From NCBI GenBank assembly GCA_011620345.1, contig WOZJ01000071.1, positions 16,580-80,579 of the forward strand: 64,000 nt of DNA. The letters are read 5' to 3'. Positions 12,466 through 55,847 of the stretch are shown here, piece by piece (within the stretch, counting starts at the first letter, position 1; each line of letters begins with the position of its first letter). This DNA is from Nitrospirota bacterium. Lineage in GTDB: Bacteria > UBA2233. Under the pieces are notes generated by a model. The model searched no databases. It was not told the origin of the DNA and worked only from the letters and a program-made list of their open reading frames with translations. The translations under genes and the position numbers were made by a program.

Positions 12466-13261
12466 GTCGACCACGCGGCTTACGATTGCAGCCCCTGCAA
12501 GAGAGCACCACTTCCTTCTGCGTATCCTTCCCAAATCCATGCCTTGCATGATTTTGTCAGAATGGGAACTTTCAATCGAGGCTGCGGACTATGTTTCGGC
12601 CTTTGAGGATGCCTTTGGCAATCGGGTTTTTTATGGGGCCGTTCTAGGCGAGCATGCTCAGCTTGTTGCCAGTGTTTGGGGGAAGGTTTTGCAGAGGAAT
12701 GAGTACTGGGACGACGACGTCCAAGGACTAGGACTGTTTTGTCTTCCCTCGCCGATGGTCGGCCCAAGCGAAGCCTTGGATGGGCTTGTAGCCGCAATGA
12801 CGCCCGCATTCCGCAAGCTTCAAACTCGAGAAGGAATGCTTTTCTTGAACGATGCCGTCTTTCGCCAGCTTGTCTACGAAAAATGCGTAACAAACTCCGA
12901 AACGGACGCGGGCGAGGCGCTTTCTAGGGGCAAGGGGGTCTGTCAGGATTTCGCGCACATCTTGATCGGCCTTCTCCGCGGGCTTGGAGTGCCAGCGCGA
13001 TACGTGACAGGATACATAGAGGGCGAGGGCGATAGCCACGCCTGGGTCGAGGCGTTCCACGAAGGCCGATGGTATGGCTTAGACCCGACGCACAACACGT
13101 TCGTTAGGGAAGGGTACATTAAAGTGGCTCACGGGCGAGACGCCAAGGACACGCGGATGAATTCGGGAGTCTTCAAGGGCAAGTTTTCTCAATACGTCGA
13201 AGTTAATGTGCGCGTAGAGATGCTGGAAACGGACGATGCTCGAGACCTGGTTCACGCTTAA
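12437..13261 (+). CDS. Transglutaminase-like cysteine peptidase
   Basis: The protein has an N-terminal beta domain of the kind found in bacterial transglutaminase-like proteins, followed by the papain-like catalytic core. The triad is visible: Cys169 in GKGVCQDFAHILIGLLRGLG, His201 in GDSHAWVEAF and Asp216 in YGLDPTHN. Such proteins are probable peptidases or amide-exchange enzymes. The ATG at 12437 has GAGGAGAAGG just upstream and overlaps the alpha-E gene. ATP-grasp, alpha-E and transglutaminase-like genes form a recurrent trio in bacterial genomes. Confidence 0.92.
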   Translation: MPLSACYLFKSTTRLTIAAPAREHHFLLRILPKSMPCMILSEWELSIEAADYVSAFEDAFGNRVFYGAVLGEHAQLVASVWGKVLQRNEYWDDDVQGLGLFCLPSPMVGPSEALDGLVAAMTPAFRKLQTREGMLFLNDAVFRQLVYEKCVTNSETDAGEALSRGKGVCQDFAHILIGLLRGLGVPARYVTGYIEGEGDSHAWVEAFHEGRWYGLDPTHNTFVREGYIKVAHGRDAKDTRMNSGVFKGKFSQYVEVNVRVEMLETDDARDLVHA

Positions 13262-14183
13262 CCTGCCAACCCGCGAAACGGTTGCCCTTCAAAGGCAGCG
13301 CTTTTTTCCCGAGGGTACGGAGGGGTCTTTTAAGCACCTAAAAAGGCTTTCGGTTCTATCCGGAATTCACGGAGATGAGCTGGAAGGGCTCTACATCTGC
13401 TACCGCCTCGCCTCCTTCCTTAAGGAAAACCCTCAGGCGATCCGGGGGGTCATCGACATCTATCCAAGCTTGAACCCTTTGGGGGTGAGCATGACCCGGC
13501 GGTTCGTCCCGTTCTTCGAGATGGATTTGAACCGCGTGTTTCCAGGGGATTCGTTTGGGAGCCTGCCCGAAAAGATGGCGCATGCGGCAGTCCATGCGGT
13601 AAGCGGCTCGAATATTGCTGTTGATTTGCATGCAAGCAACATTTTTTTAAAGGAAATCCCTCAAGTTCGGATCGACGAGGGAAACACATCAAAGCTTTTA
13701 CCCTTAGCCAAGCTTTTGAACGTAGACTTTGTTTGGGTATACCCTTCTGTTACCGTGCTCCGCTCAACATTGGCCCATACGCTCAACGCCATAGGCGTAC
13801 GCACGCTCGTGGTCGAGATGGGGGTCGGGCTTCGGGTAACTCCCGTTTTCGGAGATCAGCTCGTTTCAGGTCTTCTCCATTTGATGGCCCATGAAGGGTT
13901 CCTTTCGCTCGATTCTCCGCCCGAAGTGCGCGAGCCCATTGTTTCTATAAACGAGCAAGTTTACTTTATAAATGCCGGCTGTTCCGGCCTGTTTATTCCC
14001 GGAGCAGACCATGGGGGAAGGATAGGAAAAGAAGAGGTGATCGGGCAAATCGTATCCCCCTTTACGGGAGAGGGGCTGGAGACGCTAAGGAGCCCGGCAG
14101 ATGGCCTTTTGTTCACACTTCGGGCCTATCCGATCGTGTTCGAGGGCTCGTTGGTCGCCAGGGTCTGCGCACTGGAGGGCTAA
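13236..14183 (+). CDS. Succinylglutamate desuccinylase/aspartoacylase-like zinc carboxypeptidase (intact site)
   Basis: This 315-residue protein belongs to the AstE/AspA branch of M14-like zinc enzymes, which cut amide bonds next to free carboxylates. Zinc ligands appear intact: His45 and Glu48 in LSGIHGDELEG and His132 in VDLHAS. Substrate-pocket residues occur in YPSLNPLG and DLNRVFPG. A C-terminal lipoyl-like beta barrel includes DGLLFTLRAYPIVFEGSLVA. The ATG at 13236 overlaps the transglutaminase-like gene by 26 bases, and the stop shares one base with the next start (TAATG). In this operon a role in trimming a peptide or amide product is plausible but not shown. Confidence 0.87.
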   Translation: MLETWFTLNLPTRETVALQRQRFFPEGTEGSFKHLKRLSVLSGIHGDELEGLYICYRLASFLKENPQAIRGVIDIYPSLNPLGVSMTRRFVPFFEMDLNRVFPGDSFGSLPEKMAHAAVHAVSGSNIAVDLHASNIFLKEIPQVRIDEGNTSKLLPLAKLLNVDFVWVYPSVTVLRSTLAHTLNAIGVRTLVVEMGVGLRVTPVFGDQLVSGLLHLMAHEGFLSLDSPPEVREPIVSINEQVYFINAGCSGLFIPGADHGGRIGKEEVIGQIVSPFTGEGLETLRSPADGLLFTLRAYPIVFEGSLVARVCALEG

Positions 14184-15109
14184 TGGTACGAGAAATCTTG
14201 GTTCAAATGACTTCGCCGGCCGGCTATCCGATTCACGTCGTCGGGTTTCGGTTTGGGGAGGGTAGGCCAAAGGTGGCTATCGTGGGCGGCCTTAGGGGCG
14301 ACGAGGTCCATCAAAGCTACGTGGTCGCACGGCTATGCGCCTTCTTGAGGCGGGAGGCCGAAAGGAACCCCGGCGTTATTCAAGGGGAAATTCTCCTCGT
14401 TCCGCTAGTCAACACCTTCGGGTTCAACGTGGGGTATCGCTTCTGGCCCCCGGATGCAACCGATATTGACAAAATGTTCCCTGGTTTTCGCTTCGGAGAG
14501 ACCACACAGATTCTTGCCTATTCACTGTTTGAAAAGCTCAAGGATGCCGACTTCGGCGTGCACGTCACAAGCCTTGATCCCCATCAAGAGCACATGGCCC
14601 TCACGACGATGTACGGGTCTGGCTTGGGGAATATCGAGGCGGGGTCGTATTTTGGAACCCATTTCTTGTACGTGAAGGATCCGAAACCCTTCGATACAGG
14701 ATCTCTTTTGTACAACTGGCAAGTCTGGGACGTTCGTGCCCTTGGCTTGGTCGGGGGCAAGCCTTCAGAAATCCAACAAGACCTTGCCCTCGAACAAACA
14801 ACGGCCATTCTTCGGTTTCTTTCCAAGGTTGGAGTCTTGAAGTTAAGGGTCCCGGAGCGCTTCAGCCCCGTTTTGCTCGAAGAGGCAGATTTGCTGCTTG
14901 TCCGGAACAGGCACTCTGGGCTTTTTTTGCCCCTCAAGGCTCCAGGGTGCGGAGTGTTCGAAGGGGAGACGTTAGGCTGGGTCCGGGATACGCTTACCGG
15001 TGAACCGCTCGAAGAGCTCCAAAGCCCATCCCTAGGAACCGTATTCTTTCGGTATGCCCGTCCCGCAATTTTTGAAGAGGAGGTGGCTTTCGGGGTTGCA
15101 ACCCGCTGA
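14183..15109 (+). CDS. Second AstE-like protein with an altered zinc site
   Basis: This 308-residue paralogue of the preceding gene has the same domain order: AstE-like core, then a C-terminal beta barrel. The zinc motif reads GGLRGDEVH: Arg38 stands where the first zinc-binding His belongs, while Glu41 remains. The second motif reads DFGVHVTS in place of VDLHAS, so the His is kept and the Asp is lost. The DLNR motif became DIDKMFPG. The enzyme is probably inactive or binds metal differently, perhaps acting as a partner of its neighbour. It is the last gene of the operon and is convergent with the oppF-like gene 64 bases away. Confidence 0.8.
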   Translation: MVREILVQMTSPAGYPIHVVGFRFGEGRPKVAIVGGLRGDEVHQSYVVARLCAFLRREAERNPGVIQGEILLVPLVNTFGFNVGYRFWPPDATDIDKMFPGFRFGETTQILAYSLFEKLKDADFGVHVTSLDPHQEHMALTTMYGSGLGNIEAGSYFGTHFLYVKDPKPFDTGSLLYNWQVWDVRALGLVGGKPSEIQQDLALEQTTAILRFLSKVGVLKLRVPERFSPVLLEEADLLLVRNRHSGLFLPLKAPGCGVFEGETLGWVRDTLTGEPLEELQSPSLGTVFFRYARPAIFEEEVAFGVATR

Positions 15110-16148: not shown

Positions 16149-16347
16149 CGCTTCCTCCCTAGTATGAACGTTCGAACCTTGAACGTAGCCTACTCCAGAG
16201 GTGCTGGACGATCAAGGCATGGTTGCACATAGGGCAAACAAGCTAACCAAGGCCACTTCGTGAAACCCTCATCGGCCGGCGCAACTTTCGCCTTTTCCGC
16301 CCCCTTTTGTGCCAGGCGGTGACGGGGGCATAACGCTTCTTGGCGGC

Positions 16348-17013
16348 TCAACGGTAGCGTTGGAAGCTCCATACTATCTTTCCGATGACGATGGGTCCCT
16401 CTTGGGAGGCGCCAAACAAAGGGAACGCGAAGGATGGGTAGCGCTCGTTGTCGCTTTGAAGCAGGAGCGTCCCCCCCTCCAGTAGGATGCAGCGCTTGAT
16501 TACCGCGCCTTTCATCGGGAGCCAGAAGGCGAACAGCCGCTCGTGCTCCAGAAAGCCGCGCTTTGTGTCGATCCCGACGACGCTACCGTCCACGAGCGTC
16601 GGCTCCATCGAAGCGCCCCTGACGGCCATGGCGTAAATTCCGTCCTTTACGAGGCTTACGGGTACGACGATTTCGCCCACAACGTCCGTGTGCGGGTCTA
16701 TCGGCCCGCCTGCCGCGAGCGCCCCGTATACGGGTAGGCCGAGGTGTTCTTCGGCCGTTTTCGAGGCAAGCGCGGGCTCGAGGGCAAAGGAGCCCTTGAA
16801 GCTCGCCTGACCCTCCTGTTCAAGCCATGCCATGATGGCTGCAACAGAGGAGAAGCGTACGTCCCGCCCGTTTAAGAATGCCCGCAGAGTCCTTGGGTCT
16901 ACATCGAGCCTTCTGGCAAGCTCCCCCAACCCCCGCCCCCCGGCCCTTTCGCAAAGCTTCCGGATGCGTTCCCTTAAGCCCCTAAGGTAGGCTTCTTTGT
17001 CATGCATGTTCAT
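16348..17013 (-). CDS. LexA-like self-cleaving transcriptional repressor (HTH + S24 peptidase)
   Basis: This 221-residue protein has an N-terminal helix-turn-helix of XRE/Cro type (about residues 28-56, LGELARRLDVDPRTLRAFLN) and a C-terminal S24 peptidase domain. The autocleavage apparatus is complete: the Ala-Gly bond in YGALAAGGP (101-102), Ser135 in VRGASMEPTLVDG and Lys173 in GAVIKRC, with spacings close to E. coli LexA (84/85, 119, 156). It should therefore be inactivated by RecA filaments after DNA damage. ATG 17013 follows AAGGAGGGACA; an upstream frame extension has no such site. It is divergent from the RecA-like/PolB genes across 130 bases containing two inverted repeats. It differs from canonical LexA in its HTH type. 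Confidence 0.88.
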   Translation of the reverse strand: MNMHDKEAYLRGLRERIRKLCERAGGRGLGELARRLDVDPRTLRAFLNGRDVRFSSVAAIMAWLEQEGQASFKGSFALEPALASKTAEEHLGLPVYGALAAGGPIDPHTDVVGEIVVPVSLVKDGIYAMAVRGASMEPTLVDGSVVGIDTKRGFLEHERLFAFWLPMKGAVIKRCILLEGGTLLLQSDNERYPSFAFPLFGASQEGPIVIGKIVWSFQRYR

Positions 17014-17037
17014 TGTCCCTCCTTGGTCAAGAAACCA

Positions 17038-17054
17038 TACCTTCCGGAATGGTA
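17038..17054. promoter_or_regulatory. Candidate operator 2 at the repressor's own promoter
   Basis: Imperfect dyad TACC-TTCCGGAA-T-GGTA with one unpaired base. It covers the -10 of the leftward promoter, as expected for autorepression. Binding is inferred, not shown. Confidence 0.4.
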
Positions 17055-17076
17055 CGTTTGATGCTTGACTTGGCAA
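17049..17076 (-). promoter_or_regulatory. Leftward promoter for the LexA-like repressor
   Basis: On the minus strand TTGCCA (17076-17071), a 16-base spacer and TACCAT (17054-17049) form a fair sigma70-type promoter about 36 bases upstream of the repressor ATG. Confidence 0.45.
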
Positions 17077-17094
17077 CATCATGTAGACTATATT
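17065..17094 (+). promoter_or_regulatory. Rightward promoter for the RecA-like/PolB cassette
   Basis: TTGACT (17065-17070), an 18-base spacer and TATATT (17089-17094) match sigma70 hexamers at five of six positions each. Transcription would start near 17101, about 43 bases before the first gene. The -10 lies inside the perfect inverted repeat at 17086-17099. Confidence 0.6.
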
Positions 17095-17099
17095 TAGTC
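17086..17099. promoter_or_regulatory. Candidate operator 1, perfect inverted repeat GACTA-TATT-TAGTC
   Basis: Fourteen-base dyad with 5-base perfect arms around TATT. It overlaps the -10 of the rightward promoter, so a bound repressor would block RNA polymerase. The divergent S24 repressor is the obvious candidate ligand. Confidence 0.5.
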
Positions 17100-17143
17100 A
17101 TATTTTCTATTATAGCAGCATAAAATGGAACTTACGGCAACAT

Positions 17144-17623
17144 ATGGATGCATTAGAGCATCTTCATGCTAAGAATCCGCTTGAACTTGCGCATAAGCTC
17201 GCACTCTATGCGGCTCTCAAGGGGCTGCGGGTGGCCATCTTGGATGCCGGGGACTGTTTTCGGCCGCATTTATTCCCTAGATTGCCCCGCGTTTCCCGGC
17301 GGACCAAGGAGGAGGCAAACAGGCGGCTCTATGTCTGCCGGATCTTTACCCCGGAACAGCTCAAGGCCGCTCTAACGTCTCTTAGCGCGCTCGGGCCTGA
17401 GCTTGCACTTGTTCTCGGGCCCGGGCGTTTGCTTATGGACGCTCCAAAGCGCCTTGATGTTTTCGCCTTTCCTGTCGTCATCGTAGAAAAGAATACCCTC
17501 ATCCTCAACCGTGCTTCCAGGGAGGCTTTCTATGGGAAGGAACGTTTTACCCCCGAGCCTTCTGATCGCCAGGGAAGAGGCGCTCTTAAAAGACTTCCTG
17601 CGCGCTCTCCGCAAGGAAGATAG
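17144..17623 (+). CDS. RecA/Rad51-like protein lacking Walker A (ImuA-like role proposed)
   Basis: I recognise only a fold-level similarity in this 159-residue protein. The segment LAHKLALYAALKGLRVAILD followed by AGDCFRP, then RRLYVCRIFTPEQLKAALTSL, resembles the strand-helix pattern of RecA/Rad51 cores after the P-loop. No GxxxxGKT motif occurs in the protein or upstream in frame, and the Walker B-like strand (ELALVLGPGRLLMD) has no clean acidic end. ImuA/SulA-type proteins of SOS mutagenesis operons are likewise RecA-like without ATPase motifs. ATG 17144 has a weak ribosome site. The next gene overlaps its 3' end by 92 bases. It is the first gene of the cassette. Confidence 0.6.
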   Translation: MDALEHLHAKNPLELAHKLALYAALKGLRVAILDAGDCFRPHLFPRLPRVSRRTKEEANRRLYVCRIFTPEQLKAALTSLSALGPELALVLGPGRLLMDAPKRLDVFAFPVVIVEKNTLILNRASREAFYGKERFTPEPSDRQGRGALKRLPARSPQGR

Positions 17624-17789
17624 GCTCGTGCTCAAACGGCTCTTGGCCGGAGTGCGCGCGCATAGTCAAGCAATCGGCCTTTCTGATGTCGAGCCTTTTG
17701 AGGCCATCCTCCTTGCCATGCTCCTCGAGATCCAAAAAGAGGTCGAGGCCCTCAAGGAGGCTTTGGAGGGGGCAAAGAAGCACCCATGA
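17532..17789 (+). CDS. Small helical protein of the PolB cassette, function unknown
   Basis: I do not recognise this 85-residue protein. It is predicted almost wholly helical, with a charged stretch KDFLRALRKEDRLVLKRLL and an amphipathic, possibly coiled-coil end (LEIQKEVEALKEALEGAKK). GGGAGG lies six bases before ATG 17532, so translation is credible despite the 92-base overlap with the preceding gene in another frame. Its last four bases overlap the polymerase start (ATGA). Position suggests an accessory subunit linking the RecA-like protein and the polymerase; that is inference. Confidence 0.7.
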   Translation: MGRNVLPPSLLIAREEALLKDFLRALRKEDRLVLKRLLAGVRAHSQAIGLSDVEPFEAILLAMLLEIQKEVEALKEALEGAKKHP

Positions 17790-19975
17790 AGTCAGGGTTT
17801 CTACTGGATGCCCACGAAACCCCAAAGGGGATAGGTTTGTGGTTGGCGTTGGACGATGGAAGCCGTCCGCGTTTAGAGCGCGCCTTTAGCCCTGGCTTTG
17901 CACTTGAAAACGAGGGGAGGAAGACAAGGCGCGCAGTGGCGATCCTCCAAGGGCGCTTCGGTAAGGATATTCGGGTGGTTGAGGGCAAGGGGAACGACCT
18001 TCTTAAGGGGGAGGTGCCCCTTTTTGAAATTAAGGCCAAAGACCCATGGACGTTCGAGCGCCTCAAAGCCCAAGCCCTCCGCTCGGACCTCTTTGAGGGG
18101 CTTTGTGTTTACGGGGTTGATACCCCCGCCGTCTCGCAGTTTTTTTTGAAGACGGGGATGTTTCCGTTCTGCAGGTTCGCTTTCAAAGACGGAGAGTTAA
18201 GGGTTTGCGACGAGCCCTTGGCGCTCGATTACCCCTTTCCGTCCCTTAGGGTCTTGGAGGTTTCCTTGGAACCCGAAGGGCTTGACCCAATGCACGCAAG
18301 AAGGGCGTTTGCGCTGTGCCTTCGGCCCTTGGGAGAAGAAGAGGGCCTCGTGCTAGAGGCCTGCGACAAAGAGGGCATCGAAAGCTCCTTAAGGCGCTTC
18401 GACCCCGACGTGATCCTCGCCCCGTTTGGCGACGGTTACACGCTCAAGCGCCTCCTTGCGCTGGGTGTCCGCACGCTTTCCAGAGAAGGGTTTCACGCCC
18501 GTCTTGGCGAAGACCAAACCATCGCCTCGTACGGAAAGGTCTATGCAAGGAAGGGGCCCGTGCTCCTAAGCGGGCGTCTCCACATTGACCCCCGCAACTC
18601 GTTTTTCTACCCGGAAGTCGGGCTGGCTGGACTCATCGAACTCTCCAGGGCCTGCGCCATCCCTTTGCAAGAGCTTGCCAGGACAACCCCCGGCAGGGCC
18701 ATTACCCGGCTCGAGGCCCGCTTGGCTGGCCAGCTCGGGTTTCTTGTCCCGTTTCAAAAGGGCGTCCCGGAGGGCTTTAAAACGCTCGAGACGTTCCTTA
18801 GGCTCGATAAAGGGGGCTTGAGCTTCAGGCCGCTCGTGGGGTTTTTTGAGAACGTGGCCGAGTACGATTTTGCCTCGATGTACCCGAGCATCATCGTGAA
18901 CTTCAACCTCTCGTACGAGACGCTCAACTGCGGGCATCCTTCTTGTCAAACGCGGCTTCCGGTCTCAGGGTACGGCGTTTGCTCGAAGCGCACCGGGATC
19001 GTGCCCTTTACCTTGAAGCGCCTGATCGAAAGGCGGGAAACGCTCAAAGCGAGGGCGGCTTTGGAGAGCGATCCCCGCCAAAGACAAGCGCTCGAGCAAA
19101 GGCAAAAGGCCCTTAAATGGCTGCTTGTCGTGAGCTTTGGGTATCTTGGCTACAGGAACGCAAAATTCGGCAGGATCGAGGCGCACGAGGCGACGACGGC
19201 CATAGGGCGGGAGCTTTTGCTTTTTGCCAAAGAAATCGCCGAAGCAAGGGGGTTCAAGCTTCTCCACGCGCTGACGGATGCGCTCTGGGTTCAAAAAGAG
19301 GGCGCCCAAGAGCGTGCATACGTGGAGCTCGAGCACGAAATCATACGGAGGGTCAACGCCGCATTCAAGCCGGTGTTGCCAGACGGGGTTCCATGGAAGG
19401 TCCGGCTTGAAGGGGTATACGCTTGGGTTCGTTTTCTTGCCTCCAAGGCCTACGGGGTTGGCGTTGGGAACCGCTACGTGGGCGTGTTTCAGGATAGAAC
19501 GATCAAAGCAAGGGGAATCCTCCTTAGGCGTTCGGATACTCCACCGCTTATCAGGGAGTTCCAGGAGCAAGCGCTCCAACTCCTTGCCGGGGTTTCTAGC
19601 ATCGAAGGTCTCCGTCGGCAATATTCGACGCTTCAAGGGCTTACCAAGGCCTACGAGGCCCGCCTCGAAGAGGGGAAGGTCAGGCCGGAAGCGCTCGCTG
19701 TCCGCCTTCGGCTCGCAAGGAACCCCTTGGACTACCAAAAGCGTTCTTTTTTGGCTGAGGCCGCCCAAAGCCTTTTGGCCGAAGGTCTCGGGGTGTCATT
19801 GGGCGAGACGGTGCGTTTTGTCCGGGTTCAGGACAAAGCGCTGAGGGCGAACCCCCTTTGGCTTTACCATGACAACCCCAAGCCGATCGATACGGCCTAC
19901 TATGCAGGGCTCCTTCAAGAGGCGCTGGAAGAGCTTCTCCCTCAATCGCTCCTTAAAGAAAAAGCGCTTCCTTGA
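17786..19975 (+). CDS. Family B DNA polymerase with degenerate exonuclease motifs
   Basis: This 729-residue family B polymerase has motif A, DFASMYPSII (Asp361), and a motif B region RQKALKWLLVVSFGYLGY (439-456) where most members have KxxxNSxYG. Motif C is HALTDALWV (494-502): the first Asp of the usual DTD is Leu, while the second, metal-binding Asp498 is kept. A possible zinc site uses Cys382, Cys387 and Cys399. Proofreading residues are gone: Exo I reads EVSLEP instead of FDIE, Exo II reads APFGDGYTL without the Asp, and no Exo III Y-x3-D is seen. It is probably active but non-proofreading. Its ATG overlaps the previous stop, and its 3' end overlaps convergent oppCD by 23 bases. Confidence 0.88.
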   Translation: MKSGFLLDAHETPKGIGLWLALDDGSRPRLERAFSPGFALENEGRKTRRAVAILQGRFGKDIRVVEGKGNDLLKGEVPLFEIKAKDPWTFERLKAQALRSDLFEGLCVYGVDTPAVSQFFLKTGMFPFCRFAFKDGELRVCDEPLALDYPFPSLRVLEVSLEPEGLDPMHARRAFALCLRPLGEEEGLVLEACDKEGIESSLRRFDPDVILAPFGDGYTLKRLLALGVRTLSREGFHARLGEDQTIASYGKVYARKGPVLLSGRLHIDPRNSFFYPEVGLAGLIELSRACAIPLQELARTTPGRAITRLEARLAGQLGFLVPFQKGVPEGFKTLETFLRLDKGGLSFRPLVGFFENVAEYDFASMYPSIIVNFNLSYETLNCGHPSCQTRLPVSGYGVCSKRTGIVPFTLKRLIERRETLKARAALESDPRQRQALEQRQKALKWLLVVSFGYLGYRNAKFGRIEAHEATTAIGRELLLFAKEIAEARGFKLLHALTDALWVQKEGAQERAYVELEHEIIRRVNAAFKPVLPDGVPWKVRLEGVYAWVRFLASKAYGVGVGNRYVGVFQDRTIKARGILLRRSDTPPLIREFQEQALQLLAGVSSIEGLRRQYSTLQGLTKAYEARLEEGKVRPEALAVRLRLARNPLDYQKRSFLAEAAQSLLAEGLGVSLGETVRFVRVQDKALRANPLWLYHDNPKPIDTAYYAGLLQEALEELLPQSLLKEKALP

Positions 19976-21827
19976 CCGCGAAACAACGGGCTCTATGGCC
20001 GTCTTGGAGCGTGACCCATGGGGCCGGCTCGTCCTTGCAGTAAGGCCTTGCAACGGGACAGCGAGGGGTGAACGCGCAGCCTTTGGGGAGCGTATACGGG
20101 TCGGGGGGGCTTCCTGGAAGCGCAAGGAGGGCAGTATCCGGGTCGTCCGCGTCGGGTTTTGGGATCGAATCGAGCAGCCCTTTTGTGTAGGGATGCTGGG
20201 GGTCTTGGAACAAGCGCGTCGATGGGCCCTCTTCGACAATCTCGCCCGCATACAGCACAGAGACTCTGTCAGCCCAGCCCTTGGCAAGCGCGAAGTTGTG
20301 CGTGATGAACAAGATGCCTAGCCCGCGCGTTGTCTTGAGCTTGGTAAGGAGCGCGAGGATCCTAGCTTGCGTGGCAACATCGAGCGCCGTCGTGGGTTCG
20401 TCGGCGATCAAGAGGCTTGGCGAGAGCGCGAGCATGACGGCGAACACGACCCTTTGTCGCATGCCCCCCGAGAGCTCGTGAGGGTAAGCGAAAAAGCAGC
20501 GCCTCTGATTTTGGATGCCAACTTCCTTAAAAAGATGGAGCGCTTCCTCCTTGGCCGCAGCCCAAGAAAGCATCCTGGCGGCAACAAGCGCCTCTGCCAC
20601 CTGTTTTCCGGCCTGCATCGTCGGGTTGAGCGACCCTAAAGGGTTCTGGAAAACCATGGCCAGCTTAGGCTTGCCCAGCTGATCGAGGGGCCCAAGCCTT
20701 GGCAGTCGGAGCTCTTGGCCCATGAACAGGCACTTGCCAGAAACCAGCGAGCCTTTCTTTGGCAGGAGTCCCATAATGGACCTTCCTAGCGTTGACTTGC
20801 CAGAGCCCGACTCTCCCACGAGCGCGAGCATTTCGCCGGATTGAAGCGTAAGGCTAACCTCTCTGATCGCAGGAAGCTCTCCCCTTGGCGTAAGGAACCT
20901 AACACAGGCTCGCTCGAGCGTTAGAAGCGGCGCTCCGACAGTTTTCTCTGGAGGGAGCGCGGGAATTTCGGCGCTACCCTTGACCAACGGCCTTGGTGCT
21001 GGCTCTCCCCTTTTTGGGTCCAGCAGGTCCCTTAGGGTATCGCCCAAGGTGTTGAAGGCAAGGAGCGTCGAACAGAGAATGGTCGCAGGGATGAAGAGCT
21101 GCCAGGGGTAGTACCAAGATTCCCGCGCTCCCTCCGTGATCAGCGTGCCCAGGCTGGCCCTAGGCAGTGGCACGCCAAGGCCGATGAAGGCAAGGAACGC
21201 CTCCAAGAATACGGCCTGGGGGATGGTGAGCGTCAAGGCCACCAGTACGGGACTCATAACGTTGGGAAGGATGTGCCACAGGAGAATCCGGAACGGCCCC
21301 TGGCCCATAGCGGTCGCGGCAAGGACGAAGTCCTCTTCTTTTGCCCTCAAAACCTCGCCCCGCACGAGCCTGGCCATCGGGATCCAGCCCGTAAGCGTCA
21401 TTCCAACTATGAGCGAGAAAACCCCAGGACCTAGGATTACTGCAAGCAAAAGGACCACCATAATATAGGGGATGCTGTAGAGAACCTCTACCGCACGCAT
21501 GAAAGTCGTGTCCAATTTCCCCCCGATGTATCCCGCGAGCCCGCCCAGCATCAGGCCAAGCCCCAAATCGATCAGCGCGGCCGCAAACCCGACGAACAAA
21601 GAGATCCTAGCTCCACCCCATGCCCTTATAAACAGGTCCCTTCCGAGCGCGTCCGTTCCGAACGGGTGGGCCAAGCCGGGAGGGAGGTTGGTTTGGGCAA
21701 GGTCGATCTCGTAGGGCGAAAAGGGGCTGAGCCAAGGCCCTAGCATGGCAAGCGTTAGAATGCCAATCAAAAAAAGAAGGCTTGCAAGGAGCAAGGGGCT
21801 GGCTTTCAGCGTTCGAGAGCCGGCCAT
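19953..21827 (-). CDS. Fused peptide ABC transporter permease-ATPase (OppC-OppD)
   Basis: This 624-residue protein combines two usually separate subunits. Residues 1-275 are an OppC/DppC permease: first helix ASLLFLIGILTLAML-like, FGTDALGRDLFIRAWGG motif, and the EAA-like loop near AFLAFIGLGVPLPRASLG. Residues 295-624 are an OppD ATPase with Walker A ALVGESGSGKST, signature LSGGMRQRV, Walker B LLIADEPTTALDV and a C-terminal CAFTPRCPVARPYC segment. A short Pro-rich linker joins them. The ATG at 21827 follows the oppB stop directly, with AAGGAG inside the end of oppB. Both halves show intact motifs, so the fusion is probably functional. Confidence 0.92.
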   Translation of the reverse strand: MAGSRTLKASPLLLASLLFLIGILTLAMLGPWLSPFSPYEIDLAQTNLPPGLAHPFGTDALGRDLFIRAWGGARISLFVGFAAALIDLGLGLMLGGLAGYIGGKLDTTFMRAVEVLYSIPYIMVVLLLAVILGPGVFSLIVGMTLTGWIPMARLVRGEVLRAKEEDFVLAATAMGQGPFRILLWHILPNVMSPVLVALTLTIPQAVFLEAFLAFIGLGVPLPRASLGTLITEGARESWYYPWQLFIPATILCSTLLAFNTLGDTLRDLLDPKRGEPAPRPLVKGSAEIPALPPEKTVGAPLLTLERACVRFLTPRGELPAIREVSLTLQSGEMLALVGESGSGKSTLGRSIMGLLPKKGSLVSGKCLFMGQELRLPRLGPLDQLGKPKLAMVFQNPLGSLNPTMQAGKQVAEALVAARMLSWAAAKEEALHLFKEVGIQNQRRCFFAYPHELSGGMRQRVVFAVMLALSPSLLIADEPTTALDVATQARILALLTKLKTTRGLGILFITHNFALAKGWADRVSVLYAGEIVEEGPSTRLFQDPQHPYTKGLLDSIPKPDADDPDTALLALPGSPPDPYTLPKGCAFTPRCPVARPYCKDEPAPWVTLQDGHRARCFAVKEALFL

Positions 21828-54098: not shown

Positions 54099-55847
54099 AT
54101 GCAAGAAGAAGACAAAAAGAAGCCGCTAAGCAAAGAAGCGTTCGTGGCCATGCTCGAGAAGGTCGCTTTTTTCTTGGAGCTCGAGGGTGCCGACCCGTTT
54201 CGAGTCCGCGCTTATGAAGAGGCGAAAAGGGCGCTTCAAGCCTCCGAGGTGGACATTGGCGATATCGCACAGGACAAGGCCAAGGTTAAGGGCATTGGCA
54301 AGCATATCCAAGAGCTTATCCGAGAATACCTTGCTACAGGGGGCCTAGGCCTTTTGGAGCAGCTAACCCAGAAGTATCCCGTCTCGCTCCTCGAGCTTGG
54401 AAAGATTCCCGGGCTTGGGATAAAAAAAATCAAGGCGCTCTACGATGCGCTCAAGGTTTCAACGCCCGAGGAGCTTCGGTATGCAATAGAGGAAAACAGG
54501 CTGCTTGGCCTCGAAGGCTTTGGCATAAAAACTCAGGAGACCCTGCTTAAGCACCTATTCCTTTACGAAGAGAGACTCGGAGCCGTCCTCTTGCCCACAG
54601 GGGATGCGATTTGGAAGACGCTTCAGGATGGGCTTCAAGAAAGGCTCCCGGAAGTTCGGCTGTTTCCAGCGGGCGAGCTAAGAAGGCGCTGTCCCGTTCT
54701 TGCAGGCATCGATTGCCTGGCTGTGGCAAGCGACCCGGCTTTGCTTTGGAAGGCACTCGATGAACCTTTTCCTATTCTGAACGATGTCGTCAAGCAAGCT
54801 GACGAAGCCATCGTCGGGAAAGGGGATGGCGGCGTTCGCGTGGCCTTGACGTCCGTTTCCGCGCGCTCGTTCCCCACAAGATACTTCTTTACGACAGGAA
54901 GCTCCTCCCACGTAGAGGAAATCACCCGCCGGCTTGGCGCGGGCGGGTATTCTATGGCCCCAGAAGGCATCCATACGCACGGCGAGGAAAAGCCTGTCGA
55001 GCTCCGATCAGAGGAGGAAATTTACGCCTTGGTTGGCCTGCCCTGGATCCCGCCGGAGCTGAGGGAAGGGCTTGTGGAGTTTGACCCTGCTGTCCTTAAG
55101 AACCTTCCCGACCTCGTAAGCCAAAGCGATATCCAAGGGGCCCTTCACGTCCATACGCGGTTTAGCGACGGTATGGACGAACTCGAGGCTATGATTGCGC
55201 ATGCAAGATCGCTCGGGCTTGCCTACATCGGCATTTCTGATCATTCCAAGTCTGCCTATTACGCGGGGGGGCTTACCCAAGAGAAGCTCTTCGAGCAAAA
55301 AAAGCAAATCGAAGGACTAAGGGAGGATTTTCCGGAAATTCGAATTTTCCACGGTATCGAATCGGACATCCTGCCGGACGGCTCCATCGATTATGACGAG
55401 GCTGTTTGGAAGCAGCTCGATTTCATCATCGCATCCGTACACAGCCATTTCCAAATGGACAAGACCGCCATGACCGAGCGGGTCCTTAAGGCGATAAGAA
55501 ACCCTTACGTAACAATCCTTGGCCATCCTACGGGCAGGCTCTTGTTGGCCAGGGAGCCTTACGCAATCGATTTAGAGGCCGTCATCCAAGAGATTGCAAG
55601 GCTAGGGAAGGCGATCGAGCTGAACGCCCACCCCCAGAGACTCGATGTCGATTACCGCTGCGCCACAACGCTTCTTGCCTCGGGCGTTTTCGTCTCTATC
55701 AATCCTGACGCCCATCAGCGCTCCGGGTTGACCGACATTCGATACGGTGTCGATGTCGCAAGAAAGGCAGGGCTTCCCAAGGCGCACATCCTGAACGCCT
55801 TAACGGCCTGCGAGGTGGGTGAGTTTTTCATGCGGCAGGGCTTGTAA
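54099..55847 (+). CDS. PolX-type protein: degenerate family X polymerase core plus intact PHP domain
   Basis: This 582-residue protein has bacterial PolX architecture: helix-hairpin-helix segments (KVKGIGKHIQELI, IPGLGIKKIKALY), a nucleotidyltransferase core and a C-terminal PHP nuclease domain. PHP residues are intact: His350 and His352 in HVHTRFSDG, Asp381-His382 in ISDHSKSAYY, Glu421 in GIESDIL, VHSHF, GHPTGR and NPDAHQRSG. The polymerase site is degraded: GSxRR reads GELRR (192-196), the D-x-D reads G-I-D (203-205), and the third Asp is not found around residue 250. It probably works as a PHP exonuclease or phosphatase only, perhaps in base-excision repair. Confidence 0.88.
   Translation: MQEEDKKKPLSKEAFVAMLEKVAFFLELEGADPFRVRAYEEAKRALQASEVDIGDIAQDKAKVKGIGKHIQELIREYLATGGLGLLEQLTQKYPVSLLELGKIPGLGIKKIKALYDALKVSTPEELRYAIEENRLLGLEGFGIKTQETLLKHLFLYEERLGAVLLPTGDAIWKTLQDGLQERLPEVRLFPAGELRRRCPVLAGIDCLAVASDPALLWKALDEPFPILNDVVKQADEAIVGKGDGGVRVALTSVSARSFPTRYFFTTGSSSHVEEITRRLGAGGYSMAPEGIHTHGEEKPVELRSEEEIYALVGLPWIPPELREGLVEFDPAVLKNLPDLVSQSDIQGALHVHTRFSDGMDELEAMIAHARSLGLAYIGISDHSKSAYYAGGLTQEKLFEQKKQIEGLREDFPEIRIFHGIESDILPDGSIDYDEAVWKQLDFIIASVHSHFQMDKTAMTERVLKAIRNPYVTILGHPTGRLLLAREPYAIDLEAVIQEIARLGKAIELNAHPQRLDVDYRCATTLLASGVFVSINPDAHQRSGLTDIRYGVDVARKAGLPKAHILNALTACEVGEFFMRQGL

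Follow-up and report, generated by a model that had tools for sequence, protein, structure and literature searches.

Organisation of the locus

Four genes and a divergent promoter region occupy positions 16348-19975 of the window, by which we mean the whole 64,000-nucleotide stretch of DNA analysed. As an earlier note on this DNA had described, and as a check of the open reading frames bore out, a gene for a 221-residue repressor on the reverse strand (16348-17013) is divergent from three overlapping genes on the forward strand (17144-17623, 17532-17789 and 17786-19975), with a region of 130 bp (17014-17143) in between. The forward genes encode, in this order, iRadA, an inactive RadA/Rad51-like protein of 159 residues, PPB2 (arCOG07300), a small helical protein of 85 residues, and PolB2, an exonuclease-dead family B polymerase of 729 residues. 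Profiles for the three proteins were built without the window and each was run against the 1288 open reading frames of the window, where each had a sole match (iRadA 2.9e-10, PPB2 1e-19 and PolB2 2e-193); as every profile picked only the expected frame out of the 1288, chance was excluded. The order iRadA-PPB2-PolB2, adjacent and on one strand, is that of bacterial PolB2 mutasomes. Judged by sequence, the three genes are a PolB2 mutasome operon, and thus a known kind of operon and not a new system.

The flanking genes are chromosomal and comprise transporter and housekeeping functions. At 19953-21827 lies a gene for a peptide-type ABC transporter of 624 residues in which an OppC-like permease and an OppD-like ATPase are fused, while two adjacent succinylglutamate desuccinylase/aspartoacylase-like genes, with a 1-base overlap, lie at 13236-15109. 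The sequence GAACGTTCGAAC (16163-16185), ahead of the ABC gene, resembles a Gram-positive LexA box; since it is kept in the same-genus genome G001, which is without the repressor, it is probably unrelated to the cassette.

Components of the PolB2 mutasome

PolB2 (17786-19975) matched the Pfam family DNA_pol_B at 1.1e-31 and the archaeal type B polymerase model NF004416 at 1.3e-101, a match under that model's own cut-off. Alignment showed that the exonuclease acids are not kept, and the earlier description of a family B polymerase devoid of proofreading motifs was thus correct. Motif C (residues 496-498) reads LTD instead of DxD, the replacement of the first Asp being a PolB2-type loss. Motif A, DFASMYPSII, and the GYLGYRNAKFG signature are retained, and the catalytic and signature residues kept in the cassette further include K444, D498, GYLGYRNAKFGRIEAHE and FT..QL. 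In the D(K/R) motif that follows the iRadA-binding loop, Asp268 is kept and the next residue is Pro, the column of the published motif having been assigned by us. Structure prediction for PolB2 from a two-row alignment was unsuccessful (pLDDT 34).

The protein encoded at 17144-17623 lacks a Walker A motif and had no match in Pfam or NCBIfam. A profile built from three iRadA sequences matched RadA in the PDB at 1.5e-5, and the model predicted for the protein, of moderate confidence (pLDDT 65), found RAD51 paralogs, Dmc1 and RadA as its top matches (Foldseek 3e-4), with Z up to 10.6 and an rmsd of 4.3 over 130 residues. The claim of a RecA/Rad51-like protein without Walker A, for which the earlier note had proposed structure prediction as a check, was upheld in this way, and membership of the RadA/Rad51 group, without the ATPase motifs and without the N-terminal domain, is supported by the predicted fold. 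In its middle part iRadA lacks about 60 residues that its relatives have, which makes it shorter than all the relatives aligned, and its last 28 or so residues, which overlap PPB2 (a gene overlap of 92 bases), were modelled as disordered. Inspection by eye showed no beta-clamp motif, and this, together with the missing 60 residues, suggests that the mutasome complex may be a reduced one.

The product of 17532-17789 likewise had no match in Pfam or NCBIfam. What had been described as a helical protein of 85 residues is PPB2, as identified by the leave-out profile, and in the alignment its N-terminal arm reads MGRN where the family, whose members have some 90 residues, has MGRT, so that MGR is kept and one residue differs.

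The repressor is of a phage type and divergent from the operon

The start of the repressor gene was taken at 17013, behind a good Shine-Dalgarno sequence, AAGGAGGG. The protein contains an S24 peptidase domain (Pfam, 6e-13) and matched the PHROG family phrog_4 (transcriptional repressor) at 2.8e-21 over residues 13-219, nearly its full length; its HTH is XRE-like, with a weak match to HTH_31 under the model cut-off. The autocleavage residues, Ala101-Gly102, Ser135 and Lys173, are intact, and the earlier note had both named and numbered them rightly. Its description of the protein as LexA-like needs revision, as the repressor is phage CI-like. The LexA winged-helix domain PF01726 gave no match in a Pfam search and TIGR00498 scored 17.7 bits against a cut-off of 111, and the assignment as LexA was rejected. 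With an XRE-like HTH joined to an S24 domain carrying Ala-Gly, Ser and Lys, the sequence resembles repressors of the phage CI/HdiR type.

At 10 other bacterial PolB2 loci an S24 repressor lies upstream in the same direction as the operon, whereas the repressor of the window is divergent; PF01726 was tested for in 7 of these 10 repressors and was present in all 7 (1e-14 to 1e-20). The nearest PolB2 in the tree is that of G300 (support 99/99), whose neighbouring repressor is LexA-like and arranged in the usual way. An exchange of repressors thus seems to have taken place in the lineage of the window. It is also the sole S24 protein found in its genome, the assembly being a draft that is 97% complete, and since the search turned up no further LexA-like protein there, it appears to be dedicated to the mutasome cassette.

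Three sigma-70-like promoters were found in 16900-17300, against 0.6 +/- 0.9 in shuffled sequences. On the forward strand, a promoter-like TTGACT-18-TATATT (17065-17094) faces the polymerase operon and agrees with the consensus at 10 of 12 positions, an agreement that is no proof of function. Two imperfect palindromes were considered as candidate operators, ACCATACCTTCCGGAATGGT (17034-17053), which overlaps the promoter-like site of the repressor, and GACTATATTTAGTC (17086-17099), which overlaps the -10 element of the operon promoter. The palindromes of 17006-17150, both candidates included, were no better than those of shuffled sequences. ACCATACCTTCCGGAATGGT is single copy in the genome with up to 3 mismatches allowed, GACTATATTTAGTC is single copy as well, and the recA region and the cassette promoter shared no word of more than 9 bases and no common operator motif. 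The recA gene (L050, G000) follows a 2'-5' RNA ligase-like gene after a short gap and is itself followed by alaS, these names being read from translations.

These results bear on a different account of control, in which the PolB2 mutasome is damage-inducible by another route and the S24 protein happens to lie next to it, having targets elsewhere or having lost autocleavage control. No operator was found, the recA region has no longer word in common with the promoter, and the repressor is unlike the LexA of other PolB2 loci, all of which this account would accommodate. Nevertheless we consider it unlikely, given that the repressor is divergent across just 130 bp, that its cleavage residues are intact, that it is the only S24 protein of the genome, and that G001 has lost it along with the operon.

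Distribution of the three genes

Among 386 diverse bacterial genomes, 9 contained relatives, the window's own included, as did 16 of the 95 searched from the phylum to which G226 belongs, with further relatives in one Nitrospirae MAG and on haloarchaeal plasmids. An additional match among the 386, a family B polymerase of G115, was set aside as another PolB type, since its motifs DTDS and NACYGYAGW are not PolB2-like. The earlier note had proposed a search for co-occurrence, and all three genes indeed stand together, in the order iRadA-PPB2-PolB2, at 14 bacterial loci, that of the window among them; at 11 of the 14 (window included) iRadA has an S24 repressor next to it. The remaining PolB2 loci are cut by a contig end or keep only one partner, and in G430 and G413 the sequence available upstream, 3 to 6 kb, contained no partner genes. 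In G059 (L025, 3795-7052) the PolB2 reading frame extends to 1086 residues, motifs A and B being separated by an additional stretch of about 230-270 residues, in which a Pfam search for an intein gave no match.

A full iRadA-PPB2-PolB2 set with the MGRT arm is also present in the Leptospira phage LinZ_10 (KF114880.1, L007; 4183-7439), a phage-borne mutasome whose genes are annotated merely as hypothetical proteins and DNA polymerase. Its existence, and the CI-like nature of the repressor, would suit a mobile or phage-derived replication module in place of a cellular damage response. Yet scans of viral contigs found no PolB2 relatives, the genes on either side are chromosomal ones for transporters and housekeeping functions, and the PolB2 of the window groups with that of a cellular genome (99/99), so that we regard such an origin of the cassette's function as very improbable.

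Loss of the cassette in a related genome

Neither the genome of the window nor G001 yielded a Y-family polymerase (IMS domain), and each has one DnaE and one canonical RecA. A DNA polymerase of family X, in which HHH, thumb and PHP domains are present, is encoded in the same window at 54099-55847, and PolB2 is therefore not the sole accessory polymerase.

Comparison of L005 with the window by blastn showed that a stretch of 3592 bp (16227-19818) is absent from G001, where both flanks, 94-95% identical to the window, are joined directly by a single clean deletion. The deletion took the repressor, iRadA, PPB2 and most of PolB2 and touched no flanking gene, and no S24 protein was found in G001. 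The last 157 bp of PolB2 are retained there, 134 bp of them outside the neighbouring gene, and since this 3' end remains, the cassette was lost in G001 and not gained in the genome of the window.

Such a loss within one genus could mean that the cassette of the window is itself decaying, left over from an earlier mutasome, its iRadA already shortened, and heading the same way. The length of iRadA, below that of every aligned relative, the MGRN arm of PPB2 and the DP in place of DK in PolB2 would agree with this; but all four frames are open across 3.6 kb and the catalytic and signature residues are retained, and we hold decay to be improbable.

Proposed function and comparison with known systems

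The locus is best read as a mutagenesis cassette, inducible by damage, in which a family B polymerase is paired with a RecA-like protein that is dead as an ATPase, and we think it probable that this PolB2 mutasome operon is controlled by the divergent S24 repressor of phage type beside it, the whole being a self-contained, RecA-triggered translesion cassette. In the undamaged cell a repressor dimer on the 130-bp divergent promoter would keep both directions off, forming an autoregulated unit. RecA filaments on damaged DNA would then bring about cleavage of the repressor at Ala101-Gly102 by Ser135/Lys173, upon which the iRadA-PPB2-PolB2 operon would be expressed. A PPB2 trimer would place its arm near the active site of PolB2, which is without proofreading, and iRadA would dock through a Rad51-type contact. 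The resulting heteropentamer would extend primer ends that are distorted or mismatched, carrying synthesis beyond the lesion at the price of mutations.

Control by the repressor is supported by its intact cleavage residues, the canonical RecA, its position as the only S24 protein and the joint loss in G001, and the mutasome itself by the leave-out profiles, the gene order at 14 loci, the RAD51/RadA fold, motif C and the MGR arm. The proposal is weakened by the operator search, in which the best palindromes were no better than those of shuffled sequences, and by the fact that PolB2 is an extender in archaea while this genome is without a Y-family inserter.

The earlier note knew of no experimental description of such a system, but the operon is already in the literature. 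PolB2, inactivated RadA and the small helical arCOG07300 protein were described in one operon, beside lexA in some bacteria (Leptospirillum ferriphilum), by Makarova 2014 (PMC4104785), and Timinskas 2025 (PMC11791011) modelled the mutasome as iRadA, a PPB2 trimer and PolB2, with iRadA-PPB2-PolB2 as the only order in bacteria and lexA enriched nearby. Archaeal PolB2/Dpo2 has been tested: it is an exonuclease-less extender polymerase (PMC8764526), and Sulfolobus PolB2 is reported to be induced by damage and to be needed for targeted mutagenesis (PMC7390963, as summarised in PMC11791011), which lends further support to the mutasome reading. The window shares with bacterial PolB2 mutasomes its three genes and their order, the MGR arm, the dead exonuclease, the loss of the first Asp of DxD and an adjoining LexA-type (S24) repressor. 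It differs in that this repressor is divergent, phage-type, without the LexA DNA-binding domain and alone of its kind in the genome, and in the shortened iRadA with its 92-base overlap and no beta-clamp motif seen. With Sulfolobus PolB2/Dpo2 (PMC7390963, PMC8764526) it has in common the polymerase family and damage-linked operon partners; archaeal control is by Orc1-2/Cdc6-type factors, in contrast to the S24 repressor proposed here.

HdiR and FddR (PMC8565304, PMC13148647) are S24 repressors of phage type whose regulons are small and local. They drive their own expression and that of a unit which is divergent or mutagenic, and these precedents support a local regulon here. They resemble the present repressor in their CI-like HTH and S24 domains, autocleavage residues, divergent or local mutagenic target and LexA-poor host, and differ in controlling UmuC-type or other genes, whereas the target here is a PolB2 mutasome.

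The parallel drawn earlier with lexA-imuA-imuB-dnaE2 stands for the layout of a LexA-type repressor, an ATPase-dead RecA-like protein and an error-prone polymerase, and fails otherwise, as iRadA belongs with RadA/Rad51, the polymerase is of family B, and the genome is without ImuB or a Y-family polymerase. Membership of imuA-imuB-dnaE2 was rejected, as the genome showed no IMS domain and just one DnaE.

What is new is the choice and isolation of the switch, the polymerase complex having already been described. PolB2 mutasomes of bacteria are predicted, and we found no experimental test of them in bacteria in the literature searched. A compact cassette of four genes that brings its own switch, where the genome has neither a Y-family polymerase nor a second LexA-like protein, would allow complex and control to be transferred together and tested jointly. 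It also lends weight to the idea (PMC13148647) that self-contained, divergently transcribed phage-repressor units can serve to rebuild SOS networks. If the proposed control is true, DNA damage should turn on one self-contained mutation cassette in this organism.
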